Positions 39,532 through 63,506 of a stretch of DNA of 64,000 bases are shown piece after piece. A program made the position numbers and the translations under genes. Source of the stretch: Henckelia pumila (taxonomy: Eukaryota > Streptophyta > Magnoliopsida > Lamiales > Gesneriaceae); contig NC_133121.1 in assembly GCF_033568475.1 (NCBI RefSeq), positions 74,668,589-74,732,588 of the forward strand, given 5' to 3'. Below the pieces are notes generated by a model that made no database searches, had not been told where the DNA came from, and was given only the letters and a program-made list of their open reading frames with translations. The number at the start of each line of letters is the position of its first letter. Position 1 is the stretch's first letter.

Positions 39532-41375
39532 TGAAAGAGTAGGTGCCCGGTGAGCCAACTTGTGGCTAAGGGCTTTGAGGACTCTTTGTATAAACAATCT
39601 TTTGTTTAATATAATTTACACTTTTATTAATGGCAATGACTTTATCTTTCTTCATATTGTTATATTGTGATATACTATTGTTGTTTTGATAAAGACCTTG
39701 AATATACTATAGTGTATGTAAGATGTGGTAGAACATGGAGATGACTATCATGAAACACATCTTATAGTCACTGTGTATTCTAAACTGTTCCTAGTCGATT
39801 GAGCCGTCTGATAATAAGGATAAGGATCGCTCGAGTTTGAGACTAGCATTTGCGATGCAGAGTACCACGTTTCATTGGTAAGGAACATAGAGATGTTCGA
39901 AGCATGCAAATGGATATTCATACGATGAATGATCGAACTACCCTATCCGGACTTTCCAAGTGGTTATCACTTATCGAGTGGATAAAGTCCGCGGTTTTGG
40001 TTGTACACCATTAGTCCTTACTACTTGAAACATCATTGAGACTCTATATGCTAGTACTGTACTTTGACTCGTTTACCGACTCTATTGGGGTCATCAGGTG
40101 TCGGGATTGGGTACAGTTATAACACATATAGGAGTCGATGCTTTGTTGTCAAGGATTCACCACATACTTGCGAGTGTGGATATCCTATGCGATCTGAGGA
40201 GATATTAGTGTGACGAATCTTTGGCCAGAGTACATGATGTGTTTTAAGAAATGGTTTCTTAGTAGCACATGCGATGTCACTATTTGATCTTCAAGATGTA
40301 TTGCATAGTTATCGAATCTCGAACGACTCTTGATTTACCAATGGTTGTTGATTCGATCGGGATATATGGATGAAGGGACCGTACTGTATGCTAACCAAAA
40401 TCTATTGGTTCTTGCAGGCACTATCAGTGATACCTAGGGAATCATGGGGCGATGTTGCTAGGCGCTCTTATCATGATTCGATGGGCAAGTCGGAAATTGT
40501 TGTTCCGAGTCACAAGGAGTTGTAAGCCCACGGCTAGCTGTATCCCTGAACCATTGAGGGTCACACAGAGTAATGGATTTTTAATCCCCGTTGAGATAGT
40601 TAAATTTAAAGAGTTATATTTAATGAACAAAGAAGTTGGACTTCTTATTTAAGAGTAGAGGAGTAAGATTTTCTAAAATGACATAGGGATGGGCATTTTT
40701 GGAAACCACTGAATTCGGATTCAGAAAAATTTATCTTGACTTTAAAAGGTGCAGAAATGGTTTCTGTGCACATTGGTGAAATCGGTTTATCAATCGGAGT
40801 CATGATGAATTTTATATTAATTTCTGAACATGCGGGCTTTGCTTGTCGGGCTTGAACTTATGACTAATGGGCCCTAAGCTGTTAGCGGCCTACATTATAA
40901 ATAATTTATTGTAGTACAGAAATTACACAGAACAGGTCACAAATTTTCGAAAAACCTAGTATTTTTCTCTAACAGTGGCCGCCCCCCTCCCCTCTGCTCG
41001 GGAAAAATCCAGCCTGTGAATTTTGAATTACAGTCTGGTTTAACGGATCAAATTCGTTAATTCTCTTCGTAGAAACTTCTGATAGATTTTCTAGTGCAAT
41101 CTATCAGAGGGATTAATTATCCGTTCGTGGACCTGATTGAAGAACAATTCGTCCATCAGTTCCAGGGATATACAACAAGAGCAGAGCAATCTGTTGGTGT
41201 CCATAATCTCGCTTCGAGATTGGAGGTAAAAAATTTATAATTGTTATTTAATTTTTACACACACAATTTAATCGTTAAGTTTTGATACCCATTATGGAAT
41301 CGTTCCATATAAAATTTTTAAACTTCCGCTGCACCGGGTATCAATTCTGATTGATCTGATCGTCGTTCTCCAACA
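39532..41375 (+). mobile_element. Solo LTR of the copia-A family
   Basis: 1844 bp, TGAAAGAG...CTCCAACA, aligned along its whole length with the copia-A LTR. A perfect 5-bp duplication and no internal sequence show that a full element inserted in gypsy-2 gag and then lost its interior by LTR-LTR recombination. TATAAATAA at 40896-40904 is the family's TATA box. Confidence 0.95.
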
Positions 41376-41689: not shown

Positions 41690-42779
41690 AAAATGTAGTG
41701 ACCCAACCCGGATCCACTATCTAATCATAGTTATAGTAAAAGTGCATGCAATAAAATCTTAAAGCGTAAAGAGCGGATAATTTAAATACAACGAATCCAA
41801 TCGGAAAAATACAATCGACGCTGTCACAAGTGTATAAATACTGTTATACAACCAAATCGAAGGTTCAGGGTAAATAAATCCCTACCCACTACAACCTTGC
41901 ACTCCCCAAAGGTCAATCCTGCTGAGAGCTGCCTGGATCGTCCAGCCTCAAACTTGCCCCGCCACAAGGTACACAACGAATACCCAAACACAGGGGCGTG
42001 AGCTAGAATGCTCAATACAAAGCAATGATATAAATACAAATATGCGCACACAGATGATTTAAAACTCAAGTGAAAACACTTGCTCCTGGCGCCGGGAATA
42101 TACAGTATCGGCTAGAGAGCTACTCCGCGGGGTACTCGTATATTCCATATCAGGGCTGAGCCAACCCCATCCTGACCCGAATCCAAAACAGGATACAAGC
42201 CTCATACGGAAACTGTCAATCCTGACTCGAGTCCAAAATGAGATCATTGTTCCCTATGGAGACTGTCAATGACTCACATATCTCCGGATGCAGTCACACG
42301 TAAAATCATGTATGTGCTAAGGTGGTAAAACATGCTAAAACATGATAAAACATATAGCACATACTCATGCAACATATAAGCAGATATATCATGTCAGCTA
42401 TCTCGGTCAGTACTTACGTACCTCTAATCACTGCTGGTCAAACCTAGCTCTGCTGGTCTAGACTCCAAGCCTACTAGTCCAGTCTACTAGCTACTACATA
42501 GCAAATAACCATGCATCAACAATTAAGCTCTAAAAGCCTTAACTAAGCTATTGCATGCTCCTAAATATTTTTAGGATGCCAAAGCTATACCTGCGTCCGT
42601 CGTTAGCCCTTTGCTGTCGATAGCCTCAAACTAGGCCAAAGCTCCGCGACGACGTCTAGATCACTAAGCCACTTCTGGATTCCCCGTAGGACGCCTAGAT
42701 CTCCCTAGATCTGAGTTAGAAGGCTTAGGAATCGAGAGAGAAGAGAGGAAATTGGTGTGAGAAATGAATTCTCGGACCC

Positions 42780-42791
42780 TTTATTTATAGA
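42780..42791 (-). promoter_or_regulatory. Candidate TATA box of gypsy-2
   Basis: CTATAAATAAA on the minus strand, the best TATA-like match in this LTR. The hairpin array lies directly upstream. Confidence 0.6.
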
Positions 42792-42795
42792 CAAC

Positions 42796-43053
42796 GATCG
42801 GAGCCTCCGAACCTGGTTCGGAACGTCCGAACTCGATCGGAACTTCCGATCGCCCCTTCGGAGCTTCTGATCGCCCGATATTATGTCAGCCATGATGTCA
42901 CCTTGCTGACGTAAGTGATGACGTATACACTGAGTCTGATCGGAGCTTTCGATCTTGCCGACGGAGCTTCCGATCTCGATCGGAGCCTCCGATCCTGACA
43001 CGGAGCTTCCGATCTACTTCGGATCGTCCAAACTCCTCTTCGGACCGTCCGAT
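42796..43053. repeat. Array of inverted repeats with 3-base loops in gypsy-2 U3
   Basis: About nine to ten degenerate units. The best are GATCGGA-ACT-TCCGATC (42835-42851), GTTCGGA-ACG-TCCGAAC (42816-42832) and GATCGGA-GCC-TCCGATC (42978-42994): perfect 7-bp arms with a 3-base centre, arranged head to tail at 19-20 bp in the dense parts. Confidence 0.85.
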
Positions 43054-43126
43054 ATATCTTGGACTATTTAGGCATAATTTAGTAATTAATTACCTTAATT
43101 ACCTTGATTAATTGCGGGTTACTACA

Positions 43127-44985: not shown

Positions 44986-46828
44986 TGAAAGAGTGGGTGC
45001 CCGGTGAGCCAACTTGTGGCTAAGGGCTTTGATGACTCTTTGTATAAACAATCTTTTGTTTAATATTATTTACACTTTTATTAATGGCAATGACTTTATC
45101 TTTCTTCATATTGTTATATTGTGATATACTATTGTTGTTTTGATAAAGACCTTGAATATACTATAGTGTATGTAAGATGTGGTAGAACATGGGGATGTCT
45201 ATCATGAAACACATCTTATAGTCACTGTATATTCTAAACTGTTCCTAGTCGATTGAGCCGTCCGATAATAAGGATAAGGATCGCTCGAGTTTGAGACTAG
45301 CATTTGCGATGCAGAGTACCACGTTTCATTGGTAAGGAACATAGAGATGTTCGAAGCATGCAAATGGATATTCATATGATGAATGATCGAACTACCCTAT
45401 CCGGACTTTCCAAGTGGTTATCACTTATCGAGTGGATATAGTCCGCGGTTTTGGTTGTACACCATTAGTCCTTACTACTTGAAACATCATTGAGACTCTA
45501 TATGCTAGTACTGTGCTTTGACTCGTTTACCGACTCTATTGGGGTCATCAGGTGTCGGGATTGGGTACAGTTACAACACATATAGGAGTCGATGCTTTGT
45601 TGTCAAGGATTCACCACATACTTGCGAGTGTGGATATCCTATGCGATCTGAGGAGATATTAGTGTGACGAATCTCTAGCCAGAGTACATGATGTGATTTA
45701 AGAAATGGTTTCTTAGTAGCACATGCGATGTCACTATTTGATCTTCAAGATGTATTGCATAGTTATCGAATCTCGAGCGACTCTCGATATACCAATGGTT
45801 GTTGATTCGATCGGGATATATGGATGAAGGGACCGTACTGTACGCTAACCAAAATCTATTGGTTCTTGTAGGCACTATCAGTGATACCTAGGGAATCATG
45901 GGGCGATGTTGCTAGACGCTCTTACCATGATTCGATGGGCAAGTCGGAAATTGTTGTTCCGAGTCACAAGGAGTTGTGAGCCCACGGCTAGCTGTATCCC
46001 TGAACCATTGAGGGTCACACAGAGTAATGAATTTTTAATCCCCGTTGAGATAGTTAAATTTAAAGAGTTAAATTTAATGAACAAAGAAGTTAGACTTCTT
46101 AATTATGAGTAGAGGAGTAAGATTTCCTAAAATGACATAGGGATGGACATTTTTGGAAACCACTGAATTCGGATTCATAAAAATTTATCTTGACTTTAAA
46201 AGGTGTAGAAATGGTTTCTGTGCACATTGGTGAAATCGGTTTATCAATCGGAGTCACGATGAATTTTATATTAATTTCTGAACATGCAGGCTTTGCTTGT
46301 CGGGCTTGAACTTATGACTAATGGGCCCTAAGCTGTTAGTGGCCTACATTATAAATAAGTTATTGCAGTACAAAAATTACATACAACAGGTCACAATTTT
46401 CGAAAACCTAAGTATTTTCTATCAATAGTGGCCGCCCCCCTCCCTCTCTACTCGGTAAAATCCAGCCTGTGAATTTTGAATTTGCAGTCTGGTTTAACGG
46501 ATCAAATTCGTTAATCTCTTCGTAGAAACTTCTGAAAGATTTTCTAGTGCAATCTATCAGAGGGATTGAATATCCGTTCGTGGACCTGATTGAAGAACAG
46601 TTCGTCCATCAGTTCCAGGGATATACAACGAGAGCAGAGAAATCTGTTGGTGTCCAAAATCTCGATTCGAGATTAAAGGTAAAAATTTTATAATTGTTAT
46701 TTAATTTTTACACACACAATTTAATCGTAAGGTTGATACCTATTATGGAATCGTTCCATACAAAAATTTTAAACTTCCGCTGCACCGGGTATCAATCCTA
46801 ATTGATCTGATCGCCGCGTTCTCCAACA
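44986..46828 (+). repeat. copia-A 5' LTR
   Basis: 1843 bp, TGAAAGAG...CTCCAACA. TTATAAATAA at 46349-46358 is the likely TATA box, putting the transcript start roughly 440 bp before the LTR end. Confidence 0.95.
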
Positions 46829-46829
46829 G

Positions 46830-46842
46830 TGGTATCAGAGCC
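46830..46842 (+). other. copia-A primer binding site (initiator tRNA-Met)
   Basis: TGGTATCAGAGCC, one base after the LTR end. Confidence 0.95.
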
Positions 46843-46960
46843 AGGTTGCTCAGATCAAGCGATTAAATTTAATCGATTGTACAAAAAAAAATTTTGGCCT
46901 CGGTTTTTGAAACAAAATAAATATTTTAAAAATAAAAACTTTTTTTTTTCGGGCAAAAAC

Positions 46961-47010
46961 CCGGGCAGCGATTGGATCGCTGCCCGGGGGGGCAGCGATC
47001 GTCGCTGCCC
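46961..47010 (+). repeat. GC-rich hairpin pair in the copia-A leader
   Basis: CCGGGCAGCGAT-TGG-ATCGCTGCCCGG (perfect 12-bp arms) is followed by GGGCAGCGA-TCG-TCGCTGCCC (perfect 9-bp arms). The same place in copia-B has about 14 units. Confidence 0.92.
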
Positions 47011-47284
47011 GTCCCGACCCCATTAGGGCGCGGGCAGCCCGGGAATGTCCCGGGCGGCCCGCGGGAAAAATTAATTTTAATTTTTAAATTAAATTTTAAT
47101 ATGTTAAAATTCTATTTTTGGTCCGATCGAAAATTGTTTTGATTGGTCCACGAGGCGCCGGATCGAATTGTTCGAGTCCGGAAATTTTAAAATTGATTTT
47201 TGGATAAATTTGAATTTTTGGAAAATTTTAATATTTTATCCTTAAATTGAATTTTGAAATTAATTATTTTTGGTACAATTGATG

Positions 47285-47432
47285 ATAAGATATGATCTTA
47301 TGGATATATTGATAAAATATGATTTTATGTATAAAATTGGATTTTATAGATAAAATATGATTTTATTTGATAAAAAGATAAAATATGATTTTGTATGTAA
47401 AATAAGATTTTATGTATGAAATATGATTTTAT
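47285..47432 (+). repeat. AT-rich hairpin array in the copia-A leader
   Basis: Seven units in 148 bp, period about 21. Examples: ATAAGAT-ATG-ATCTTAT (47285-47301), ATAAAAT-ATG-ATTTTAT (47312-47328), TATAAAAT-TGG-ATTTTATA (47330-47348). Arms are 6-8 bp with a 3-base loop, mostly ATG. Two units have one arm mismatch. Confidence 0.9.
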
Positions 47433-48586
47433 CCTTTTAAATTTAAATTGCCATTGCATGTTATCCAATAAATTAATTTTGAATTAAATGTTATTGGATA
47501 AGGATGATCGATTGCCATGACCAATTTTGTAGGTGTATGTTAGGAATTTACATTTGTTTTTATTGTTGTTGGTTTTATTAATGGGCCTCGTTTATGGCCC
47601 AATATGAATGTCATATGTAATAAAAGTGGGCTTGGTTTATGGCCCGTTCCCACCCCTTAAAAATGTATCCCCTACTTGTCATTTTTATTTATTGTAAATA
47701 CATTAGATTTAGTGGGAGATCAAGATTTGAAGATGGAGGTGGGCCCAGCAGACAATAAAGACAGAAGAAATGTAAATTGGAAGCAAATGTAATAGGATTG
47801 CATTGCATACTGCATATTACCTAGGATTGGACTAAGACTCGTGATTGGCAACCACGGGTCGATTAGAAATGGAATCGATCATCCTATATAATATGTGATA
47901 TTATAGTTGTATGCATGTTTTATACAAAATTGTGTGAATCCGACAAGCATACAAAATTTTAAAAATGATGAGACAAATTTTCATAATTAAAAATCTCTCA
48001 TTTTAAATATGATTTAAAATTGATATCAAGATAAATAAAGGAAATTTAAATTTGTTTAAATGTTCCTACCTTCCATCAACGATCAATGTATGAGATGCTA
48101 CCCGCGGATACGGTCCGGCTCATATTATTGGGGGGGCCCGTTCATCGGAAAGCTGTACATTGGATCGACACATGTTGTAAGTTGGGTGGAACTCCCATGG
48201 GATCGGCTCATATTATTGGGGGATCCACATGGCGACCATCCATCACAACTTAATATTGATGGGTCATCTTGACATGTCACAATAAACGGCGTCATATTAT
48301 TGGGCCCTTATTGGACATGAGGTAAAAACGTGGAGGTTGCTTTGGAAGCAATTGGGCTCTACCTTTTGAAAATTATGGTTGGCTGATATTATTCGGGACC
48401 ATAAGTTTGTCAATTGGACTCCATGTTCTCACTAAGGAAAACAGTTTTCCGTTTTCACTAGAGGGTAGTGAAATCGTTAAAATAGTGGGAGTGAGATTCA
48501 TAAAATAAATTTCGCCTATTTTATGTCTTAGTAAATTGCTTAAACAATCACTGATATTTGTCAGTTTCTTTTCAGTATTTCATAAG

Positions 48587-49430
48587 ATGAATTCGCGTAA
48601 TCCACTTTTCTCGATCCTCGAACAAAATAAGTTGACTGGCGCAAACTATACGGAATGGTTCCGTAAGTTGAAGATAGTCTTGACTTCGGAGAAGATGCTC
48701 TACGTGTTAGAAAATCTCCTCCGAAGGAAGCACCAGCTGACGTAAGTCCGGAGGAGTTAGCCAAGCTTGATACATGGTGGGACCATGATATCAAGACCAA
48801 ATGTTATATGCAAGCCTCGATGTCTGATGAACTCCAGAGGCGATTTGAGGACACCGTGAATGCTGCTGACATTCACGTTCAACTCAAGGAACTTTTTGGG
48901 GCTCAATCGAGGGCTGAAAGGTTCGCTACTGTAAAGGAGCTAATGACGTGTCGCATGCGTGAAGGGACTTCGGTCCGTGATCATGGGGTACGAGTGATTT
49001 GGCTCATACAAAAGTTGGTAACCCTTGATTTGGTGTTGGAGCATGAACTCAACGTGGACTTACTACTTCTGTCTCTACCTTCTTCGTTTGACGGATTTGT
49101 GGTGAATTTCAATATGAACAAGATAGAGGCCTCCCTTGAAGAGATGGTCAATATGCTTGTGACATATGAATCCACATTAAAGAAGGATAAACCGGCTTTC
49201 TTGGTGGGCTCCTCTTCTTCTGCTAAGAAGGGGCCAAGTACAAAGGGCAAGAAACGTTCTGCCCCACCCAAGAAAATCAAACCCGAGAAGAAGTACAAGA
49301 CAAAGGCTTCAAACATGGAAAAATCCAAGGATGTTTGCCATTACTGCAAGAAGCCCGGTCATTGGAAGCGTAACTGCAAGGAATATCTAGAGCAGTTGCG
49401 AACTGCGAAGGGTATGTTCTATATTGAAAT
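48587..49430 (+). pseudogene. copia-A gag part
   Basis: It starts MNSRNPLFSILEQNKLTGAN, typical of copia gag, and contains LEEMVNMLVTYESTLKK, a lysine-rich linker, and the zinc knuckle CHYCKKPGHWKRNCKEYLEQ. In Ty1/copia elements gag and pol are made as one polyprotein. Broken fossil. Confidence 0.87.
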
Positions 49431-52400
49431 AAATGTTTCACTTAATACTACTTCTTGGGTATTGGATACCGGATGTGAATCTCACATTTGCAATGATTTG
49501 CAGGTGATGACAAGAAGTCGCAGGCTTAGAATGGGTGAGACCCAGCTGAGGCTCGGAAATGGTTCCAGAGTTGAAGCTAAAGCCGTGGGAGATGTTTATT
49601 TATTTTTGCAGAACGGTTTTAAGTTACTTTTAAGAGATGTTTTATTTGTTCCGGATTTGATTAAAAACATTATTTCTGTTTTTATGCTTGATAGAGATGG
49701 TTATTCTTGCAATTTTGTGAATGGGATTTGCAATATTTACAAGAATGAATGTTTAATTGGAAATGGACAACTTGAAAACGATCTATACAACTTAAAACTA
49801 AAAGACGTTCCAATAAATTATGTTGATAAACCGGCAACAACAAACAAAAGGAAAATCGATAGCCAAAACCCGGAAAACCTTTGGCACGCTAGGCTAGGTC
49901 ATATTTCCTGAAGGAGGATGAATAAGCTAGTGGGAGAGGGCATGTTTGATATGTCTGATATTAACTCTCTACCTACTTGTGAATCCTGCCTAAAAGGAAA
50001 AATGACTAAATCCTTTTAAGGGGAAACCTGAGCGTAGTCAAAATCTGTTGGATTTGATCCATACAGATGTTTGTGGTCCATTTAGAGTTGGGACTCAATA
50101 TGGCCACACCTACTTCATTACATTTACTGATGATTATTCAAGGTATGGGTATTTATATTTAATGAAATAGAAGTCTGAAGCATTTGAAAAATTCAAAGAA
50201 TTCAAGGCTGAAGTAGAAAACAAGCTAGGCAAAAGTATTAAAGCACTTCGATCGGATCGAGGTGGAGAATACTTGAGTACCGAGTTTTTGGACTATCTAA
50301 AAGAGAATGGGATTCTCTCTCAGTGGACTCCTCCTATGACACCACAGCTTAATGGTGTATCGGAGCGTCGTAATCGAACTTTGTTGGACATGGTTGTCCA
50401 TGATGAGCTTCACTGAGCTTCCACCTTCGTTTTGGGGCTATGCCTTGAAACGGCGGTATTGTTGTTGAACAACGTCCACACTAAAGCAGTGGACAAAACA
50501 CCATACGAGTTATGGAATGGCAAAGCTCCTAAGTATTCGTACTTGAGGATTTGGGGATGTCCTGCTTACGTGAAGCGGACAGTGGGAGATAAGTTGGATA
50601 GTCGATCCAGCTTATGTTATTTTGTAGGGTATCCGAAGAATTCAATCGGATAATATTTCTATTATCCTGCTGAAACAAAGGTGTTTGTTTCGAGGAATGC
50701 CACCTTCTTGGAGAAGGAGTTCTTATTGGATAAGAAAGGCGAGATGATGGAACTCGAAGAAATTCGAGAAGAACCCGAAATATAAAATAACGATCCTACA
50801 CCTCAGGAACCATTGCTGGACACGCCTATACCTAGAAGATCCGAGAGGACTTCTAGACCTCTTATTCGATATGGTCTTCTTCTTGAAGGGGATCAAGATG
50901 AACCCGATTTTGGATGTGATCCAAGAAACTTCAAGGAAGCAATTTCTGATGCGGATTCAAATTTATGGCTTGAAGCTATGCAGACGGAAATAGATTCGAT
51001 GCATACAAACCAAGTTTGGTCTTTAGTAGATCCTCCCGATGGAATTGTTCCAATAGGGTGTAAATGGATCTACAAAAGAAAGCTTGGGCCTGATGGTAAG
51101 GTATTGACCTACAAGGCGCGATTGGTGGCAAAAGGTTATACTCAAAGACAAGGAGTTGACTATGATGAAACTTTTTCACCAGTTGCGATGTTCAAGTCCA
51201 TAAGAATCCTTATTGCCATAGCTGCATGGTATAACTATGAGATATGGCAAATGGATGTGAAGACTGCTTTTCTTAATGGAGACATTAAGGAAGAAATCTA
51301 TATGAAGCAGCCTGAGGGGTATACATCCATGGGAAGTGAGCATAAGGTATGCAAGCTTCAGAGATCAATTTATGGTCTAAAACAAGCATCAAGAAGTTGG
51401 AACCAGAAATTTGATGAAACAATAAAAGATTTTGGTTTCATCAAGAATCCGGAGGAACCATGCGTGTACAAGAAAGTAGTTAAGGATGCTGTGACATTCT
51501 TAGTACTTTATGTTGATGACATCTTACTCATTGGGAATGATGTAGGGATGTTGCAGTCAACAAAGATATGGTTATCTGGTAGATTCTCGATGAAGGATTT
51601 GGGTGAGGCATCCTATATTCTAGGGATACAGATCTATAGAGATAGATCTAAGAGAATGATAGGACTCACTCAATCAACCTACATCGACACCATATTGAAA
51701 CGGTTTTCAATGGATGGGTCCAAGAGAGGACATCTACCCATGTGTCATGGAGTTTCTCTATCCAAGTCTATGTGTCCCAAAACTGATGAAGAGATAGAGA
51801 AAATGACACATGTACCATATGCGTCAGCCATAGGTAGTATCATGTATGGGATGATATCTGCCAGACCGGATGTAGCATTTGCTCTGAGTGTCACGAGCAG
51901 ATATCAAGCTAATCCCGGTCAAATGCATTGGAAAGCCGTGAAGGACATTCTTAAGTACTTACGAAGGACTAAGAATATGTTCATGGTATATGGAGGAAGA
52001 GAACTAAAATTGGAAGGCTATACCGACTCTAGCTTCCAAAGTGACGTGGATGACTCGAAGTCAACCTCTGGATTTGTGTTCATGCTCAATGGCGGTGCTG
52101 TCTCTTGGAAGAGTTCCAAGCAGGACACCACAGCGGATTCCACCACTGAAGCAGAATACATTGCAGCATCAGCTGCTGCTAAAGAGGCCGTTTGGATGAG
52201 GAATTTCGTCCAAGAGTTGGGCGTCATTCCTGAAGTTGTTGGTCCAGTCCCGGTGTACTGTGACAACACGGGTGCCATTGCTCAGGCAAAGGAACCAAGG
52301 TCTCATCAAAGATCCAAACACGTATTGAGGAAATACCACATCATCCGGAAGATTGTGGAAAGAGGAGACATCACTGTCGAAAGAGTGGCCTCTGCAGACA

Positions 52401-52495
52401 ATATCGCTGATCCACTTACTAAGCCCTTGCCAGGACCATTATTTGACAAACATCGCGAAGCAATGGGTCTACGTAGTATGACTAGTTGGCTATAG
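49431..52495 (+). pseudogene. copia-A protease, integrase, reverse transcriptase and RNase H part
   Basis: Protease WVLDTGCESHICNDL, pre-integrase NLWHARLGHIS, integrase core HTDVCGPF and SDRGGEY, reverse transcriptase WQMDVKTAFLNGD and YVDDILLIG, and RNase H TTADSTTEAEYIAAS follow in the Ty1/copia order (integrase before RT). The last 560 codons are one open stretch. Other stretches are broken. Confidence 0.9.
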
Positions 52496-52509
52496 GGCAA
52501 GTGGGAGAT
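52496..52509 (+). other. copia-A polypurine tract
   Basis: GGCAAGTGGGAGAT directly before the 3' LTR. Confidence 0.85.
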
Positions 52510-54018
52510 TGAAAGAGTGGGTGCCCGGTGAGCCAACTTATGGCTAAGGGCTTTGATGACTCTTTGTATAAACAATCTTTTGTTTAATATTATTTACACT
52601 TTTATTAATGGCAATTACTTTATCTTTCTTCATATTGTTATATTGTGATATACTATTGTTGTTTTGATAAAGATCTTGAATATACTATAGTGTATGTAAG
52701 ATGTGGTAGAACATGGGGATGTCTATCATGAAACACATCTTATAGTCACTGTATATTCTAAACTGTTCCTAGTCGATTGAGCCGTCCGATAATAAGGATA
52801 AGGATCGCTCGAGTTTGAGACTAGCATTTGCGATGCAGAGTACCACGTTTCATTGGTAAGGAACATAGAGATGTTCGAAGCATGCAAATGGATATTCATA
52901 TGATGAATGATCGAACTACCCTATCCGGACTTTCCATGTGGTTATCACTTATCGAGTGGATATAGTCCGCGGTTTTGGTTGTACACCATTAGTCCTTACT
53001 ACTTGAAACATCATTGAGACTCTATATGCTAGTACTGTGCTTTGACTCGTTTACCGACTCTATTGGGGTCATCAGGTGTCGGGATTGGGTACAGTTACAA
53101 CACATATAGGAGTCGATGCTTTGTTGTCAAGGATTCACCACATACTTGCGAGTGTGGATATCCTATGCGATCTGAGGAGATATTAGTGTGACGAATCTCT
53201 AGCCAGAGTACATGATGTGATTTAAGAAATGGTTTCTTAGTAGCACATGCGATGTCACTATTTGATCTTCAAGATGTATTGCATAGTTATCGAATCTCGA
53301 GCGACTCTCGATATACCAATGGTTGTTGATTCGATCGGGATATATGGATGAAGGAACCGTACTATACGCTAACCAAAATCTATTGGTTCTTGTAGGCACT
53401 ATCAGTGATACCTAGGGAATCATGGGGCGATGTTGCTAGACGCTCTTACCATGATTCGATGGGCAAGTCGGAAATTGTTGTTCCGAGTCACAAGGAGTTG
53501 TGAGCCCACGGCTAGCTGTATCCCTGAACCATTGAGGGTCACACAGAGTAATGGATTTTTAATCTCCGTTGAGATAGTTAAATTTAAAGAGTTAAATTTA
53601 ATGAACAAAGAAGTTGGACTTCTTAATTATGAGTAGAGGAGTAAGATTTCCTAAAATGACATAGGGATGGACATTTTTGAAAACCACTGAATTAGGATTC
53701 AGAAAAATTTATCTTGACTTTAAAAGGTGCAGAAATGGTTTCTGTGCACATTGGTGAAATCGGTTTATCAATCGGAGTCACGATGAATTTTATATTAATT
53801 TCTGAACATGCAGGCTTTGCTTGTCGGGCTTGAACTTATGACTAATGGGCCCTAAGCTGTTAGTGGCCTACATTATAAATAAGTTATTGCAGTACAGAAA
53901 TTACATACAACAGGTCACAATTTTCGAAAACCTAAGTATTTTCTATCAATAGTGGCCGCCCCCCTCCCTCTCTACTCGGTAAAATCCAGCCTGTGAATTT
54001 TGAATTTGCAGTCTGGTT
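52510..54018 (+). repeat. copia-A 3' LTR, first piece
   Basis: 1509 bp ending with TGGTT (54014-54018), the left target duplication of copia-B. The second piece is at 63173-63506. Confidence 0.95.
54014..54018. other. Target site duplication TGGTT of copia-B, left copy
   Basis: The same five bases follow the copia-B end at 63168-63172. Confidence 0.95.
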
Positions 54019-55881
54019 TGTAAGAGTGGGTGCCCAGTGAGCCAACTGTGTGGCTATGGGCTTTGTTGACTCTTTGTATAAACAATCTTTTGTTTAATAT
54101 TATTTACACTTTTATGGCAATGACTTTATATTACTTCATATTGTTATATTGTGATATACTATTGTTGTTTTGATAAAGACCTTGAATATACTATAGTGTA
54201 TGTAAGATGTGGTAGAACATGGAGATGTCTATCATGAAATACATCTTATAGTCACTGTATATTCTAAAACCGTTCCTAGTCGATTGAGCCGTCCGATAAT
54301 AAGGATAAGGATCGCTCGAGTTTGAGACTAGCATTTGCGATGCGGAGTACCACGTTTCATTGGTAGGGAACATGGAGATGTTCGAAGCATGCAAATGGAT
54401 ATTCATAGGATGAATAATCGAACTACCCTATCCGGACTTTCCAAGTGGTTATCACTTATCGAGTGGATAAAGTCCGCGGTTTTGGTTGTACACCATTAGT
54501 CCTTACGACTTGAAACATCATGGAGACTCTATATGCTAGTACTGTGCTTTGACTCGTTTACCGACTCTGAGGGGGTCATCAGGTGTCGAGATTGGGTACA
54601 GTTACGACACATATAGGAGTCAATGCATTGTTGTCAAGGATTCACCACATACTTGCGAGTGTGGATATCCTATGCGATCTGAGGAGATATTAGTGTGACA
54701 AATCTCTGGCCAGAGTACTTGATGTGATTTAAGAAATGGTTTCTTAGTAGCACATGCGATGTCACTAATTTGATCTTCAAGATGCATTGCATAGTTATCG
54801 AATCTTGAGCGACTCTCGATATACCAATGGTTGTTGATTCGATCGGGATATTTGGATGAAGGGACCGTACTGTACGCTAACCAAAATCTACTGGTTCTTG
54901 TAGGCACTATCAGTGATACCTAGGGAATCATGGGGCGATGTTGCTAGGCGCTTTACCATGATTCGTTGGGCAAGTCGGAAAGTGTTGTTCCGAGTCACAA
55001 GGAGTTGTGAGCCCACGGCTAGCTGTATCCCTGAACCATTGAGGGTCACACAGTGTAATGGAGTTTTAATCCCCGTTGAGATAATTAAATTTAAAGAGTT
55101 AAATTTAATGAACTAAGGAGTTGGACTTCTTAAATAAGAGTAAGGGAGTAGGATTTCCTAAAATGACATAGGGATGGACATTTTTGGAAACCACTGAATT
55201 CGGATTCAGGAAAATTTATTTTGACTTTAAAACGTGCAGAAATGGTTTCTGTGCACATTGGTGAAATCGTTTCATCAATCGGAGTCACGATGAATTTTAT
55301 ATTAATTTCTGAACGAGCGGGCTTTGCTTGTCGGGCCACAGCTTATGATTAATGGGCCCTAAGGTGTTAGTGGCCTGCATTATAAATAAGTTATTTCAGT
55401 ACAGAAATTACACACGATAGCTCATAATTTTGAGAGAAAAAAAAACGAAACCCTAGCCCCTCTCTCAAGCTTGGCCGTCGCCCCCCTCCCTCTCTGTCTG
55501 AGAAATTCCGGTCTGTGATTTTGAATCGCAGTAAGGAATAACGAATCAAATTCGTGTATTCTCTTCGCAGAAAACTTCTGATAGATTTTCTAGTGCAATC
55601 TATCAGAGGGATTTAAACCTCTGTTCGTGGACCTGATTGAAGGCGTTCATCGGTTCCAGGGAGAGACAACAAGAGCAGAATTGTTCTGTTGGTGTCCATT
55701 AATCTCGTTGCGAGATTTGAGGTAAAATTTATTTAATTGTTATTTAAATTTTACACACACGTAATTCAATCGATGAACGGTTGATACCCATACCATGGAA
55801 ACGTTCCATGAAAAATTTTTAAACTTCCGCTGCACCGGGTATCAATCGTAATTGGTCTGGGAACTCACCAGTTTTCCAACA
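54019..55881 (+). repeat. copia-B 5' LTR
   Basis: 1863 bp. TATAAATAA at 55381-55389 is the likely TATA box. Confidence 0.96.
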
Positions 55882-55882
55882 G

Positions 55883-55895
55883 TGGTATCAGAGCC
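55883..55895 (+). other. copia-B primer binding site (initiator tRNA-Met)
   Basis: TGGTATCAGAGCC, one base after the LTR end. Confidence 0.95.
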
Positions 55896-56006
55896 AGGTT
55901 GCTCAGATCAATCGATTGAATAATCAATTGTACAAAATTTTTGAGTCTCGGTTTATGAAACAAAATAAATATTTTTAATAAAAAAAAAATTTTTTCGGGG
56001 CAAAAC

Positions 56007-56323
56007 CCGGGCAGCGATTGGATCGCTGCCCGGTGGGGCAGCAATTGTTGCTGCCCCGGGCGGCGCACGGCGCCGCCCAAAGGGGGCGCACAGCGCCGCC
56101 CAAGGCGGCGACCGTCGCCGCCTAGGGCGGCCCACGGCGCCGCCCAGGGCAGCGCTGTGCGCTGCCCAGCGCAGCGCTGGGCGCTGCGCAGGGCAGCGCT
56201 CGGCGCTGCCCAGGGGCGGCGCTCGGCGCTGCCCAGCGCAGCGCTGGGCGCTGCGCAGGGCGGCGCTCGGCGCCGCCCAGGGCAGCGCACGGCGCCGCCC
56301 AGGGGCGGCGCCAGGCGCTGCCC
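56007..56323 (+). repeat. Expanded GC-rich hairpin array in the copia-B leader
   Basis: About 14 consecutive inverted repeats in 317 bp, period 21-22. The first (56007-56033) has 12-bp arms and loop TGG, the second (56035-56057) 10-bp arms and loop TTG. Most others have 8-9-bp arms of the GGGCAGCGC or GGGCGGCGC type around loops such as ACG, TCG, TGT, TGG and CCG. Most arms are perfect and a few have one mismatch. Copia-A has only two units here. Confidence 0.93.
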
Positions 56324-56618
56324 TAAGGGAGCAGCCGGGCTGCCCCCGGCCCGCGCCCCGGGTGCGGGCCGACCCGGGAGTGTCCCGGGTGGCCCGCGGG
56401 AAAAATTAATTTTTAATTTTTTTATTAATTTTAATATTTAAAAATTTTATTTTTGGTCCGGTCAAAAATTGTTTTTGATTGGTTCACGAGATTTCGGATC
56501 GAATTGTTCGAGTCCGTAAATTTTAAAATTGATTTTGGATAAATTTGAATTTTTGGAAAATTTTAATATTTTATCCGTAAATTGAATTTTGAAATCAATT
56601 ATTTTGTTACAATTGATG

Positions 56619-56766
56619 ATAAGATATGATCTTATGATATATTAGATAAAATATGATTTTATTTGTAAAATTGGATTTTATAGATAAAATATGATTTTAT
56701 TTGATATGGAGATAAAATATGATTTTATATGTGAAATGTGATTTTATATATAAAATATGATTTTAT
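56619..56766 (+). repeat. AT-rich hairpin array in the copia-B leader
   Basis: 148 bp, the same span as in copia-A, from ATAAGAT-ATG-ATCTTAT (56619-56635) to ATAAAAT-ATG-ATTTTAT (56750-56766). Some arms differ from copia-A. Confidence 0.88.
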
Positions 56767-57917
56767 CTTGTTTAAATTTGAATTGCCACAGCATGTTATC
56801 CAATAAATTAATTTTGAATTAAATGTTATTGGATAAGGATGATCGATTGCCATGACCAATTTTGTAGGTGTATGTTAGGAATTTACATTTTGTCTTTATT
56901 GTTGTTGGTTTTATTAATGGGCCTGGTTTATGGCCCGATATGAATGTCATATGTAATAAAAGTGGGCTTGGTTTATAGCCCGTTCCCACCCCCTAAAATG
57001 TATCCCCTACTTGTCATTGTTATTTAATTGTAAATACATTAGATTTAGTGGGAGATCAAGATTTGAAGATGGTGGGCCCAGCAGACAATGAAGACTGAAG
57101 AAATGTAAATTGGAAGCATATGTAATAGGATTGCATTTGCATACTGCATATTACCTAGGATTGGACTAAGACCCGTGATTGGCAACCACGGGTCAATTAG
57201 AAATGGAATCGATCATCCTATATAATATGTGATATTATGATTGTATGCATGTTTAGACATAAATTGCGTGAATCCGGCAATGCATGCAATAAATTAAAAA
57301 TGATGAGACAAATATTTTTTATAAATAAAATCCCTCATTTTAAATATGATTTAAAATTTATATCAAGATAAATAAAGGAAATTTAAATATTGTTTAAATG
57401 TTCCTACCTTCCATCAACGGTCAATGTATGTGATGCTACCCGCGGATACGGTCCGGCTCATATTATTGGGGGGGCCCGTCCGTCGGAAAGCTGTACATTG
57501 GATCGACAAATGTTGTAAGTTGGGTGGAACTCCCATGGGATCGGCTCATATTATTGGGGGATCCACATGGCGACCGTCCATCACAACTTAATATTGATGG
57601 GTCATCTTGACATGTCACTTTAAACGGCGTCATATTATTGGGCCCTTATTGGACATGAGGTAAATACATGGGGGTTGCTTTGGAAGCAATTGGGCTCTAC
57701 CTTTTGAGAATTATGGTTGGCTGATATTATTCGGGACCATAAGTTTGTCAATTGGACTCCATGTTCTCACTAAGGAAAAAGTTTCCCGTTTTCACTAGAG
57801 GGTGGTGAAATCGTTAAAATAGTGGGAGTGAGATTCATAAAATAAAATTCGCCAATTTTATGTCTTAGTAAATTATTTAAACAATCATCGATAATTGTCT
57901 GTTTTATCTCAGTAATC

Positions 57918-58611
57918 AACATGTTTCTGTTCTCCAACAAAACAAACTTATTGACGCAAACAAACACAGAATGATTCCATAAGTTAAGATTGTCCTAAGT
58001 TCGGAAAAGATTTTCTAAGTGTTAGAAAAGGCTTCTCCGAAAACAGCCCCGGCTGATGTAACTAGAGAAATGGTTGGACCATGATCTCAAGGCAAAATGT
58101 TACATACAAAATTGGACAAGTCTAAACAAGTTTGCCATCACTGCAAGAAACCCGGTTATTGGAAACGTAACTGCAAGGAATACCTCGAGCAGTTGCGAAC
58201 TGCAAAGGGTATGTTATACATTAAAATAAATATTTTTAATACTACTTCTTGGGTATTGGATACCAGATGTAGATCTCATATTTGCAATGAGTTGCAAATG
58301 ATGATAAGAAGTAATAGGCTAAGGATGGGTGAGACCCAGTCAAGGCTCGGGAATGGTTCCAGAGTTAAATCCATAGCTATGGGAAATATTTATTTAAATT
58401 TTGCAGAACGGTTTTAAATTATTGTTAAGAGATGTTTTATTTGTGCCAGATTTAATTAAAAACATTATTTCTATGCTTGATAGAGATGGTTATTCTTGTA
58501 ATTTTGTGAATGGGATTTGCAATATTTACAAGAATGAATGTTTAATTGGAAATGGACAACTTGAAAACGATCTATACAATCTAAAACTAAAAGACGTTCC
58601 AGTAAATTGTA
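57918..58611 (+). pseudogene. copia-B gag and protease remnant
   Basis: CHHCKKPGYWKRNCKEYLEQ is the zinc knuckle, WVLDTRCRSHICNEL the protease region, and LLRDVLFVPDLIKNIISMLD the block after it. Less of gag is recognisable than in copia-A. Fossil. Confidence 0.8.
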
Positions 58612-61290
58612 TTGACAAACCGGCGACAACAAACAAAAGGAAAAATCGATAGTCAAAACCCGGCAAACCTTTGGCACGCTAGACTAGGTCATATTTCCTC
58701 AAGGAGGATGAACAAGCTAGTGGGAGAGGGCATGTTTGATATGTCTGATATTAACTCTCTACATACTTGTGAATCCTGCCTAAAAGGGAAAATGACTAAA
58801 TCTCCTTTTAAGGGGAAGCCTGAACGTAGTCAAAATCTGTTGGATTTGATCCATACAGATGTTTGTGGTCCATTTAGAGTAGGGACTCAACATGGCCACA
58901 CCTACTTCATTACCTTTACTGATGATTATTCTAGGTATGGGTATTTATATTTAATGAAATATAAGTCTGAAGCATTTGAAAAGTTCAAAGAATTCAAGGC
59001 TGAAGTAGAAAACAAGCTAGGTAAAAGTATTAAAGCACTTCGATCGGATCGAGGTGGAGAATACTTGAGTACCGAGTTTTTGGACTATCTAAAAGAGAAT
59101 GGGATTCTCTCTCAGTGGACTCCTCCTATGACACCACAGCTTAATGGTGTATCGGAGCGTCGTAATCGAACTTTGTTGGACATGGTTCGATCCATGATGA
59201 GCTTCACTGAGCTTCCACCTTCGTTTTGGGGCTATGCGCTTGAAACGGCGGTATTGTTGTTGAATAACGTCCACACTAAAGCAGTGGACAAAACACCATA
59301 CGAGTTATGGAATGGCAAAGCTCCTAAGTATTCATACTTGAGGATTTGGGGATGTCCTGCTTACGTGAAGCGGACAGTGGGAGATAAGTTGGATAGTCGA
59401 TCCAGCTTGTGTTATTTTGTGGGGTATCCGAAGAATTCAATCGGATATTATTTCTATTATCCTGCTGAAACAAAGGTGTTTGTTTCACGGAATGCCACCT
59501 TCTTGGAGAAGGAGTTCTTATTGGATAAGAAAGGCGAGATGATGGAACTCGAAGAAGTTCGAGAAGAACCCGAAATACAAAATAACGATCCCACACCTCA
59601 GGAACCATTGCTGGACACGCCTGCACCTAGAAGATCCGAGAGGACTTCTAGACCTCCAGTTCGATATGGTCTTCTTCTTGAAGAGGGTCAAGATGAACCC
59701 GACATTGGATGTGATCCAAGAAGCTTCAAGGAAGCAATTTCTGATGCGGATTCGAATTTATGGCTTGAAGCTATGCAATCAGAATTGGATTCGATGCATA
59801 CTAACCAAGTCTGGACTTTAGTGGATCCTCCCGATGGAATTGTTCCAATAGGGTGTAAATGGATCTACAAAAGAAAGCTTGGGCCTGATGGTAAGGTATT
59901 GACCTACAAGGCGCGATTGGTGGCGAAAGGTTATACTCAAAGGCAAGGAGTTGACTATGATGAAACCTTTTCACCAGTTGCTATGTTCAAGTCCATAAGA
60001 ATCCTTATTGCCATAGCTGCATGGTATGACTATGAGATATGGCAAATGGATGTGAAGACTGCTTTTCTTAATGGAGACATTAAGGAAGAAATCTATATGA
60101 AGCAGCCTGAGGGGTACACATCCATGGGAAGCGAGCATAAGGTATGCAAGCTTCAGAGATCAATTTATGGTCTAAAACAAGCATCAAGAAGTTGGAACCA
60201 GAAATTTGATGAAACAATTAAAGACTTTGGTTTCATCAAGAACCCGGAGGAACCTTGCGTGTACAAGAAAGTAGTTAAGGATGCGGTGACATTCTTAGTA
60301 CTTTATGTTGATGACATCCTACTCATTGGGAATGATGTAGGGATGTTGCAGTCAACAAAGATATGGTTATCAGGTAGATTTTCGATGAAGGATTTGGGTG
60401 AGGCATCCTACATTCTTGGGATACAGATCTATAGGGATAGATCTAAGAGAATGATAGGACTCACTCAATCAACCTACATCGATACCATATTGAAACGGTT
60501 TTCAATGGATGGGTCCAAGAGAGGACATCTACCCATGTGTCATGGAGTTTCTCTATCCAAGTCTATGTGTCCCAAGACTGATGCAGAGATAGAGAATATG
60601 ACACATGTACCATATGCGTCAGCTATAGGTAGTATCATGTATGGGATGATATCTACCAGACCGGATGTAGCATTTGCTCTGAGTGTCACGAGCAGATATC
60701 AGTCTAATCCTGGTCAGATGCATTGGAAAGCCGTGAAGGACATTCTTAAGTACTTGCGAAGGACTAAGAATATGTTCATGGTTTATGGAGGACGAGAACT
60801 CAAACTGGAAGGCTATACCGACTCTAGCTTCCAAAGTGATGTGGATGACTCGAAGTCAACCTCTGGATTTGTGTTCATGCTCAATGGCGGTGCTGTCTCT
60901 TGGAAGAGTTCCAAGCAGGACACCACAGCGGATTCCACCACTGAGGCTGAATACATTGCAGCATCAGCTGCTGCTAAAGAGGCCGTTTGGATGAGGAATT
61001 TCGTCCAAGAGTTGGGCGTCATTCCTGAATTTGTTGGTCCAGTCCCGGTGTACTGCGACAACACGGGTGCCGTTGCTCAAGCAAAGGAACCAAGGTCTCA
61101 TCAAAGATCCAAACACGTACTGAGGAAATACCACATAATCCGGGAGATTGTGGAAAGAGGAGACATCAGTGTCGAACGAGTGGCCTCTGCAGACAATATC
61201 GCTGATCCACTTACTAAGCCTTTGCCAGGACCATTGTTTGACAAACATCGCGAAGCAATGGGTCTACGTAGTATGACTAGTTGGCTATAG
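58612..61290 (+). CDS. copia-B pol frame: integrase, reverse transcriptase, RNase H
   Basis: 892 open codons. Pre-integrase zinc region with HARLGHIS and CESCLKGKMTKSPF (residues 20-65). Integrase core with aspartates near 83 (HTDVCGPF) and 146 (RSDRGGEY) and glutamate near 182 (SERRNRT). Reverse transcriptase with WQMDVKTAFLNGD and the YVDD box at 565-568. RNase H with TTADSTTEAEYIAAS near 770 and the end block ADPLTKPLPGPLFDKHREAM. The enzymes copy element RNA into DNA and insert it. In this family they are normally released from a longer gag-pol polyprotein, so the first Met here is not a natural start. The element as a whole is broken. Confidence 0.9.
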   Translation: MTNRRQQTKGKIDSQNPANLWHARLGHISSRRMNKLVGEGMFDMSDINSLHTCESCLKGKMTKSPFKGKPERSQNLLDLIHTDVCGPFRVGTQHGHTYFITFTDDYSRYGYLYLMKYKSEAFEKFKEFKAEVENKLGKSIKALRSDRGGEYLSTEFLDYLKENGILSQWTPPMTPQLNGVSERRNRTLLDMVRSMMSFTELPPSFWGYALETAVLLLNNVHTKAVDKTPYELWNGKAPKYSYLRIWGCPAYVKRTVGDKLDSRSSLCYFVGYPKNSIGYYFYYPAETKVFVSRNATFLEKEFLLDKKGEMMELEEVREEPEIQNNDPTPQEPLLDTPAPRRSERTSRPPVRYGLLLEEGQDEPDIGCDPRSFKEAISDADSNLWLEAMQSELDSMHTNQVWTLVDPPDGIVPIGCKWIYKRKLGPDGKVLTYKARLVAKGYTQRQGVDYDETFSPVAMFKSIRILIAIAAWYDYEIWQMDVKTAFLNGDIKEEIYMKQPEGYTSMGSEHKVCKLQRSIYGLKQASRSWNQKFDETIKDFGFIKNPEEPCVYKKVVKDAVTFLVLYVDDILLIGNDVGMLQSTKIWLSGRFSMKDLGEASYILGIQIYRDRSKRMIGLTQSTYIDTILKRFSMDGSKRGHLPMCHGVSLSKSMCPKTDAEIENMTHVPYASAIGSIMYGMISTRPDVAFALSVTSRYQSNPGQMHWKAVKDILKYLRRTKNMFMVYGGRELKLEGYTDSSFQSDVDDSKSTSGFVFMLNGGAVSWKSSKQDTTADSTTEAEYIAASAAAKEAVWMRNFVQELGVIPEFVGPVPVYCDNTGAVAQAKEPRSHQRSKHVLRKYHIIREIVERGDISVERVASADNIADPLTKPLPGPLFDKHREAMGLRSMTSWL

Positions 61291-61304
61291 GGCAAGTGGG
61301 AGAT
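61291..61304 (+). other. copia-B polypurine tract
   Basis: GGCAAGTGGGAGAT between the pol stop and the 3' LTR. Confidence 0.88.
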
Positions 61305-63167
61305 TGTAAGAGTGGGTGCCCAGTGAGCCAACTGTGTGGCTATGGGCTTTGTTGACTCTTTGTATAAACAATCTTTTGTTTAATATTATTTACACTTTTA
61401 TGGCAATGACTTTATATTACTTCATATTGTTATATTGTGATATACTATTGTTGTTTTGATAAAGACCTTGAATATACTATAGTGTATGTAAGATGTGGTA
61501 GAACATGGAGATGTCTATCATGAAATACATCTTATAGTCACTGTATATTCTAAAACCGTTCCTAGTCGATTGAGCCGTCCGATAATAAGGATAAGGATCG
61601 CTCGAGTTTGAGACTAGCATTTGCGATGCGGAGTACCACGTTTCATTGGTAGGGAACATGGAGATGTTCGAAGCATGCAAATGGATATTCATAGGATGAA
61701 TAATCGAACTACCCTATCCGGACTTTCCAAGTGGTTATCACTTATCGAGTGGATAAAGTCCGCGGTTTTGGTTGTACACCATTAGTCCTTACGACTTGAA
61801 ACATCATGGAGACTCTATATGCTAGTACTGTGCTTTGACTCGTTTACCGACTCTGAGGGGGTCATCAGGTGTCGAGATTGGGTACAGTTACGACACATAT
61901 AGGAGTCAATGCATTGTTGTCAAGGATTCACCACATACTTGCGAGTGTGGATATCCTATGCGATCTGAGGAGATATTAGTGTGACAAATCTCTGGCCAGA
62001 GTACTTGATGTGATTTAAGAAATGGTTTCTTAGTAGCACATGCGATGTCACTAATTTGATCTTCAAGATGCATTGCATAGTTATCGAATCTTGAGCGACT
62101 CTCGATATACCAATGGTTGTTGATTCGATCGGGATATTTGGATGAAGGGACCGTACTGTACGCTAACCAAAATCTACTGGTTCTTGTAGGCACTATCAGT
62201 GATACCTAGGGAATCATGGGGCGATGTTGCTAGGCGCTTTACCATGATTCGTTGGGCAAGTCGGAAAGTGTTGTTCCGAGTCACAAGGAGTTGTGAGCCC
62301 ACGGCTAGCTGTATCCCTGAACCATTGAGGGTCACACAGTGTAATGGAGTTTTAATCCCCGTTGAGATAATTAAATTTAAAGAGTTAAATTTAATGAACT
62401 AAGGAGTTGGACTTCTTAAATAAGAGTAAGGGAGTAGGATTTCCTAAAATGACATAGGGATGGACATTTTTGGAAACCACTGAATTCGGATTCAGGAAAA
62501 TTTATTTTGACTTTAAAACGTGCAGAAATGGTTTCTGTGCACATTGGTGAAATCGTTTCATCAATCGGAGTCACGATGAATTTTATATTAATTTCTGAAC
62601 GAGCGGGCTTTGCTTGTCGGGCCACAGCTTATGATTAATGGGCCCTAAGGTGTTAGTGGCCTGCATTATAAATAAGTTATTTCAGTACAGAAATTACACA
62701 CGATAGCTCATAATTTTGAGAGAAAAAAAAACGAAACCCTAGCCCCTCTCTCAAGCTTGGCCGTCGCCCCCCTCCCTCTCTGTCTGAGAAATTCCGGTCT
62801 GTGATTTTGAATCGCAGTAAGGAATAACGAATCAAATTCGTGTATTCTCTTCGCAGAAAACTTCTGATAGATTTTCTAGTGCAATCTATCAGAGGGATTT
62901 AAACCTCTGTTCGTGGACCTGATTGAAGGCGTTCATCGGTTCCAGGGAGAGACAACAAGAGCAGAATTGTTCTGTTGGTGTCCATTAATCTCGTTGCGAG
63001 ATTTGAGGTAAAATTTATTTAATTGTTATTTAAATTTTACACACACGTAATTCAATCGATGAACGGTTGATACCCATACCATGGAAACGTTCCATGAAAA
63101 ATTTTTAAACTTCCGCTGCACCGGGTATCAATCGTAATTGGTCTGGGAACTCACCAGTTTTCCAACA
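61305..63167 (+). repeat. copia-B 3' LTR
   Basis: 1863 bp, the same length as the 5' LTR and no difference noticed. Confidence 0.96.
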
Positions 63168-63172
63168 TGGTT
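63168..63172. other. Target site duplication TGGTT of copia-B, right copy
   Basis: Matches 54014-54018. Confidence 0.95.
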
Positions 63173-63506
63173 TAACGGATCAAATTCGTTAATCTCTTCG
63201 TAGAAACTTCTGATAGATTTTCTAGTGCAATCTATCAGAGGGATTGAATATCCGTTCGTGGACCTGATTGAAGAACAGTTCGTCCATCAGTTCCAGGGAT
63301 ATACAACGAGAGCAGAGAAATCTGTTGGTGTCCAAAATCTCGATTCGAGATTAAAGGTAAAAATTTTATAATTGTTATTTAATTTTTACGCACACAATTT
63401 AATCGTAAGGTTGATACCTATTATGGAATCGTTCCATACAAAAATTTTAAACTTCCGCTGCACCGGGTATCAATCCTAATTGATCTGATCGCCGCGTTCT
63501 CCAACA
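63173..63506 (+). repeat. copia-A 3' LTR, second piece
   Basis: 334 bp completing the LTR and ending CTCCAACA. Followed by TATGT, the right target copy of copia-A. Confidence 0.95.

Follow-up and report, generated by a model that had tools for sequence, protein, structure and literature searches.

The leader of copia-B, an LTR retrotransposon of Henckelia pumila, carries 14 consecutive head-to-tail palindromes (U1-U14, 56007-56323) that begin 112 bases past its primer binding site, and this hairpin array is a real and unusual feature. Complementarity between the two arms of the units has been kept beyond what independent drift would leave, and the capacity to form hairpins is apparently what is kept. 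All positions are those of the window, i.e., the whole stretch of 64,000 nucleotides of contig NC_133121.1 that was analysed.

Results

Plant LTR retrotransposons, nested in one another, and a satellite make up the window. The array lies in the younger of two nested copia elements, which are laid out as follows.

44986..63506, + strand: copia-A, its 3' LTR split by the copia-B insertion
46830 to ~48590, + strand: leader of copia-A
54019-63167, + strand: copia-B, inserted in the 3' LTR of copia-A
54014..54018 (left) and 63168-63172 (right): 5-bp target-site duplication TGGTT flanking copia-B
54019..55881, + strand: 5' LTR of copia-B, 1,863 bp, with a TATA-like box at 55381
55883..55894, + strand: primer binding site TGGTATCAGAGC of copia-B, Met-tRNA type
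57914..58600, + strand: broken gag region of copia-B, with 10 to 20 stops per forward frame
58606..61290, + strand: pol ORF of copia-B, 894 aa
directly upstream of 61305: polypurine tract (PPT) AGTGGGAG of copia-B
61305..63167, + strand: 3' LTR of copia-B, 1,863 bp

Copia-B belongs to Ty1/copia (Pseudoviridae), as its integrase precedes RVT_2, its LTRs run TG..CA and its target-site duplication measures 5 bp. The pol ORF encodes GAG-pre-integrase, integrase core and reverse transcriptase domains; copia-type pol domains are found in both elements and a copia-type gag domain in copia-A. A protein search returned 7,933 relatives among 7,972 scored matches, and among the 120 matches listed, identity was highest (89%) to a protein from Henckelia pumila, across 30% of the query. 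The Met-tRNA assignment of the primer binding site is in accord with the cited part of PMC2829016. An earlier reading made from the sequence only had called copia-B very young, which is borne out by two LTRs that are 100% identical over 1,863 bp each and by TGGTT on either side; the LTR pair of copia-A is about 1% apart (99.07% over 1,512 and 99.4% over 339 aligned bases). The window also holds a solo LTR of the copia-A/copia-B family (39532-41375), bordered on both sides by a 5-bp GAATC duplication and apparently situated within a Ty3-like element, and satellite-like tandem arrays at 10824-16034 and 21138-28809 with a period of ~515 bp, whose copies are roughly 82-89% identical to one another and which are interrupted by inserted DNA.

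The gag region of copia-B is about 0.5 kb shorter than that of copia-A; on visual inspection, it has lost most of its capsid part, and the zinc-knuckle region is altered yet recognisable. Since gag is broken and the LTRs are identical, another copy probably supplied the Gag that packaged this RNA, and copia-B is probably a Gag-less copy that moved recently, in trans. Both gag and pol of copia-A are frame-broken, so the window contains no intact partner for copia-B. The best 100-nt fold reaches -98 kcal/mol in the copia-B array (-75.4 kcal/mol in copia-A), and copia-B has 55 ATGs between its presumed transcription start, placed from the TATA-like box, and its gag region; together these make cap-dependent scanning to gag implausible.

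The array itself consists of two parts.

56007..56057, + strand: hairpins U1 and U2, common to copia-A and copia-B
56058..56323, + strand: hairpins U3-U14, at 22/23-bp spacing, consensus GGGCRGCGC-NNN-GCGCYGCCC

The sequence-only reading had described about 14 head-to-tail inverted repeats with a 3-base centre, and exactly such an array was recovered: 14 palindromes with arms of 9-12 bp (12 bp in U1, 10 bp in U2, 9 bp in the rest), a 3-base centre and a centre-to-centre spacing of 22-26 bp (26 bp from U1 to U2, 22 or 23 bp thereafter). Nine of the 14 units are perfect over nine pairs; U4 has two imperfect pairs and U6, U10, U13 and U14 have one each. Tandem Repeats Finder (TRF) reports a period of 22 bp with 12.2 copies and 80% matches, and additionally periods of 67 bp and 89 bp, which together with the sequence identity of U8 and U11 indicate that units were duplicated in blocks. 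The array has a G+C content of 82%. Its CpG observed/expected ratio is 0.96, and that of the copia-B LTR and the remaining leader is 0.9, so the array appears to be a G+C peak more than a special CpG-rich island.

Folding as RNA, a check that the sequence-only reading had proposed, supports the structure. The region 55990-56400 folds at -370.2 kcal/mol, whereas 100 dinucleotide shuffles average -269.5 kcal/mol (sd 6.5), giving z -15.5, and the fold is therefore not a mere by-product of G+C content. A chance origin of the fold was rejected, as 0/100 dinucleotide shuffles folded as well. When the fold is unconstrained, many units pair with their neighbours and form long rods, not single hairpins.

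Pairing in U3-U14 is retained better than sequence, as had been claimed: the arms mismatch at 0.056 of pairs (5.6%) inside units, whereas arms differ at 0.157 of positions (15.7%; the mean of 0.182 for left and 0.131 for right arms) and centres at 0.505 between units. If a single founder unit had been duplicated and then drifted, the two arms of a unit should be at least as different from each other as arms of different units, because they parted first; the observed within/between ratio is opposite to this expectation. We simulated six null models, i.e., star, uniform or late duplication, each with CpG mutation at 1x or 10x, in 1,500 runs per model, and kept runs whose between-unit divergence was 0.6-1.6 times that observed. 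No run among the 1,302-1,476 retained for each of the six models had a within/between ratio as low as the observed one. These models presuppose one perfect founder unit, and several founders would weaken the test, though several founder hairpins would themselves need explaining. Pure slippage with independent drift was rejected on the basis of these models.

Permuting right arms among units gave p 0.0001 for U1-U14 and 0.0013 for U3-U14, and a weak signal for U7-U14 alone (p 0.085 with Watson-Crick pairs, 0.028 if G-U is included). Pairs were also counted over 13 distinct rows, comprising U2-U14 and the second copia-A hairpin: 96.6% of cells are paired and 5/9 pairs are changed on both sides. 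None of 500 shuffles was as high on four measures and slid pairings were all lower; on a fifth measure, the number of further pair types, 20/500 shuffles were as high, and related sequences may beat every shuffle without any structure. The permutations and pair shuffles thus agree with the six models in speaking against arm changes being no more paired than unit duplication would give, the outcome that would have refuted the sequence-only reading, though weakly so for U7-U14.

The matched arm changes that the sequence-only reading had stressed are real in kind, with 102 of the 108 arm pairs in U3-U14 being Watson-Crick, 2 G-U and 4 unpaired, but they are weaker evidence than its wording implied because independent events are few. 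The shortest trees found, of which 10 of 25 were examined, require 18 changes, 11 of them in the 18 arm sites and 7 in the 3 centre sites (P 0.009). In sampled reconstructions matched events average 1.4 to 2 and unmatched ones 7 to 8.3; for matched branch events, the count of about 2 exceeds an expectation of 0.14 (P 0.006). The most telling matched change is a double transversion, G-C having become C-G at pair 2 in both U8 and U11, and such a change is beyond CpG decay. At its pairs 1 and 9, U5 carries A-T. Pair 5, the most variable, occurs as G-C, A-T, G-U and A-C in 5, 4, 2 and 1 of 12 units; it lies in a CpG in both arms, and its variation looks much as independent CpG decay would leave it. 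As units are related and do not constitute independent samples, support from covariation is weaker than the p values imply.

Copia-A has just two hairpins at the matching place (46960-46988 and 46990-47010), as had been noted. The first is identical to U1 over all 27/27 bases. The second differs from U2 at 3 positions, all of them changes of CpG to TpG or CpA, so that the single matched pair change in U2 is explicable by methyl-cytosine decay. Copia-A lacks U3-U14; about 22 G+C-rich bases stand there, aligning weakly to the U3-U4 junction, and may be the remnant of a lost array. Growth from 2 to 14 units, as proposed by the sequence-only reading, is not supported by the comparison, which covers two leaders (n=2). 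The leaders diverge at 7.6% (130/1,713 aligned positions), from which at most 1.4 changes in the unit centres would be expected since the split of copia-A and copia-B, and the shortest trees need at least 7 (P 0.0005, weakening to 0.12 under a threefold higher mutation rate of the array). Arm changes are unremarkable (11 vs 8.2 expected; P 0.20). Because its centres have diverged more than the comparison predicts, the array perhaps dates from the split or before, in which case copia-A would have lost it; alternatively, its centres may mutate unusually fast. An estimate from UPGMA parsimony (24 changes, 10 in the centre; P ~2e-6, array older than the split) was superseded by the shortest trees with their 18 and 7 changes.

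The six imperfect pairs in U1-U14 comprise 2 G-U, 2 A-C, 1 G-G and 1 C-C. These mismatches show no wobble bias, whereas RNA selection would be expected to favour G-U. Energies are nearly equal on the two strands, both for the unconstrained fold (sense -301.8, antisense -296.9 kcal/mol) and with pairs restricted to at most 28 bases apart (sense -261.0, antisense -255.2 kcal/mol). Imperfect pair types and strand energies thus do not separate RNA from DNA structure, and strand-specific RNA selection was rejected as an established fact since there is no wobble bias and both strands fold alike. The centres are free and unconserved, which argues against a loop recognised by proteins or kissing contacts. 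The sequence-only reading had offered a selected RNA structure or copying during reverse transcription; between these, the slower change of the arms compared with the centres (P 0.009) tips the balance towards folding capacity having been retained, be it in RNA or in DNA.

Downstream of the array, the leader contains further structures.

56327..56390, + strand: three G+C hairpins past the array; the first is U15-like with one mismatch
within 56327..56390, + strand: second of these, GCCCGCGCC-CCG-GGTGCGGGC, with one G-U
within 56327..56390, + strand: third of these, ACCCGGGA-GTG-TCCCGGGT, common to copia-A with one matched pair change
56619..56766, + strand: A+T-rich palindrome array of copia-B, ATAAAAT-ATG-ATTTTAT and variants
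57438..57752, + strand: four stem-loops of copia-B with the shared loop UAUUAU, kept in copia-A at 48100-48414

The A+T palindromes, with 7-bp arms and a centre that is mostly ATG, share the 3-base-centre architecture of the G+C array, and copia-A has them as well (TRF 47284-47432). Among maximal perfect hairpins (stem of 7 or more, loop of 3-15), a 3-base centre is found in 22/41 of the copia-B leader and 9/20 of the copia-A leader, vs 9/91 at window positions 1-44900; the leader is not unique in this respect, given 4/8 in the copia-B LTR and 3/12 in copia-B pol. We further compared 20 copia-B hairpins with stems of 6 or more outside U3-U14 with copia-A. Of their 145 pairs, 129 are the same in both elements, 2 differ on both sides, 3 changed to wobble, 8 are broken and 3 fall in gaps. 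The reverse comparison of 17 copia-A hairpins gave 114 unchanged, 2 both-sided, 5 wobble, 3 broken and 0 gaps. Both two-sided changes are in G+C hairpins, and the comparison of the two leaders revealed no matched change in A+T hairpins.

The four UAUUAU stem-loops lie 84-92 bases apart and have identical loops on differing stems. One inner-stem pair is changed from C-G to G-C in copy 4, another pair is broken in copy 3, and 21/500 shuffles reach the covariation score of these stems (n=4). The constant loop on changing stems is suggestive, resembling protein-binding RNA more than the array does, and marks out the stem-loops as candidates for a packaging or dimerisation element in the copia-A/copia-B family.

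Rfam gave 10 matches up to E 1 in 54000-58700, none reaching the gathering score; a known Rfam RNA was rejected because the microRNA matches were far below that score and mostly on both strands. For related loci, 6 pattern matches in viral contigs included 0 relatives. A leader motif had 0 matches in prokaryote contigs and 2 exact 17-base matches in viral contigs (L001, L002), which we take as chance, and the leader had no match in plasmids. Among the literature found by title or abstract, nothing dealt with an array of hairpins in the leader of a classic copia, which is no proof of absence in print.

Discussion

The closest published parallel to the array are the repeated motifs (RMs) of Sireviruses, clustered palindromes that number 8 to 32 per element and are reported, in the cited part of PMC2829016 (Bousios et al. 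2010), from the LTRs and the linker/ENV region as Sirevirus-specific and absent from classic copia. Array and RMs are alike in consisting of many short palindromes clustered in non-coding copia DNA, in forming a G+C peak and in changing rapidly, and some RMs have 8-bp arms, a 3-base centre and a CGG-CCG core, such as the published palindrome CACCGGAC-NNN-GTCCGGTG (PMC10760457) and the Sorghum RM AGGGCGGC-AGT-GCCGCCCT (PMC2829016). In its arms, the latter matches the outer part of U12 at 15/16 bases, the array units having two more inner pairs. CGG and CCG occupy the two arms in 4/14 units (U3, U5, U6, U12), against at least 8 CGG-CCG units in the RM comparison. Unlike the RMs of these reports, the copia-B cluster is located in the transcribed leader past the primer binding site and not in the LTR or linker/ENV.

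The likeness is one of kind and not of membership, because copia-B failed four tests for Sireviruses and its placement there was rejected. The Sirevirus linker between pol and the 3' LTR averages ~1.5 kb, if the figures in PMC2829016 are full length, linker and LTR; in copia-B the pol stop ends at 61290 and the LTR starts at 61305. In place of several identical linker PPT copies, this 14-base linker has a single tract. The Sirevirus PPT octamer is AGGGGGAG, and copia-B has AGTGGGAG, whose third-position G to T change is listed as common in classic elements (PMC2829016, cited part). At the 5' junction, Sireviruses have CA/ATTGG-TATCAGAGC and copia-B has CA/GTGG-TATCAGAGC. The Sirevirus AT/TG attachment site between PPT and LTR is present (AGTGGGAG-AT-TG). 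As to the polyC-rich integrase signal of Sireviruses at the LTR 3' end, no C run above 3 was apparent by eye in the final 105 bases of the LTR region.

Our preferred reading, which we hold tentatively and with somewhat less than even confidence, is that the array is a fast-turnover, RM-like palindrome cluster in the leader of a classic, non-Sirevirus copia, kept for its capacity to fold. Units would be gained and lost through tandem duplication and deletion, with template switching at hairpins, whether in replication or in reverse transcription, probably helping; once the arms of a unit ceased to pair, that unit would be lost or overwritten. As its likely role, the array would give the genomic RNA a self-complementary 5' domain that blocks scanning, keeps this RNA from translation and may favour its dimerisation and, presumably, its packaging. 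Since scanning is unlikely and Gag probably comes from another copy, our best guess is a folded 5' domain serving packaging, not translation. Copia-B, without a working gag and probably packaged in trans, might have most to gain from such a domain and little to lose. Barley BARE2 provides a precedent, as it is unable to produce Gag and the particles of BARE1 package it (PMC3735527); this copia pair likewise combines an untranslated leader with a Gag-less subfamily packaged by a partner, but a hairpin array goes unmentioned in the cited part of that paper. The leaders of CaMV and RTBV, reverse-transcribing plant elements too, are strongly folded and contain upstream start codons; this likeness is by description, and theirs is one large stem-loop without tandem small hairpins (PMC5902531, cited part).

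The strongest competing explanation is template switching, which may also operate jointly with selection. As a full alternative it states that a polymerase, either the reverse transcriptase of the element or a host enzyme, folds back or switches template and slips whole units, copying one arm from the other so that paired arms are a by-product; we consider this somewhat unlikely. Such switching can generate perfect stems in one event as well as compensatory changes (PMC8794818), and it would fit the fold without strand bias, the 3-base-centre palindromes in two unrelated leader sequences, G+C and A+T, and the excess of 3-base centres in both leaders over positions 1-44900. That centre is, however, not leader-specific, as it recurs in LTR and pol of copia-B, and it is 4-base, not 3-base, loops that are enriched among instantaneous compensatory changes (PMC8794818, cited part). 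Centre inversions, the clearest mark of switching, are absent in U1-U14 except possibly for ACA/TGT (U4, U7), and the A+T hairpins are without matched change between copia-A and copia-B. Arm copying alone should also not slow the arms relative to the centre, yet the arms do change less. A plain tandem repeat, in which a palindromic unit was duplicated by slippage and drifted neutrally, its pairing being without effect, is so improbable that we give it almost no weight: block duplication is plain and CpG decay covers part of the variation, including all 3 differences between U2 and copia-A, but the six neutral duplication models, which assume one perfect founder, and the pair shuffles reject it.

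The palindromes could instead act on DNA, as two-fold-symmetric sites or CpG-rich boxes that influence transcription, as proposed for RMs. The architecture and copy numbers (8 to 32) of published RMs (PMC10760457, PMC2829016) are in line with such a regulatory cluster, and conserved arms with a free centre fit a pair of half-sites. We nevertheless judge it unlikely, as matched changes in both arms are unexpected if half-sites are read separately, the array (CpG observed/expected 0.96 vs 0.9 around it) does not appear to be a special CpG-rich island, and it lies in the leader downstream of the presumed start site, not upstream of the TATA-like box. A source of small RNAs, with the array rod being cut by Dicer-like enzymes as an alarm to the host or, as in CaMV, as a diversion of silencing, is very improbable: hairpins of 9-12 bp are too short for Dicer, which leaves just the long-range fold to serve. 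In its unconstrained form this fold does link distant units into long rods, small RNAs are drawn to palindrome clusters in the LTRs of maize Sireviruses (PMC10760457, PMC5311732), and decoy siRNAs arise from the CaMV and RTBV leaders (PMC5902531).

Copying and selection could also be combined in a more speculative proposal that appears distinctly improbable to us, in which reverse transcriptase folds back on the nascent strand, makes and multiplies hairpins with a 3-base centre, and Gag-less copies keep the longest arrays. Any sequence would serve, G+C and A+T arrays alike, and the longest-array RNAs of translation-free Gag-less copies would dimerise and package best. Were this true, array length would be a quickly evolving weapon among competing retrotransposon RNAs. 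Whether fold, regulatory box or copying by-product is at work is testable within this one family, in which copies with 2 and with 14 hairpins stand side by side.

The untranslated leader region of Drosophila copia varies in repeat number, and we know of no hairpin array of 14-unit size in it. It resembles the copia-B leader in being a regulatory leader right after the 5' LTR (PMC2443393, cited part); the symmetry of its activator is as cited in PMC2829016. RM-type palindrome clusters were reported from Sireviruses only, in LTR and linker (PMC2829016, cited part), and a similar cluster is described here from the leader of a non-Sirevirus copia.

As a separate observation, palindromes of the type CGATCGGAA-C-TTCCGATCG, with a 1-base centre and a CGG-CCG core, are clustered at 42796-42995. 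They lie inside an LTR-like stretch on the minus strand (~41694-43126), presumed to be the LTR of a Ty3-like element on account of ends that look LTR-like by eye and of RVT_1 and RVP_2 frames close by on the minus strand, and are presumed to be another instance of RM-like boxes outside Sireviruses.
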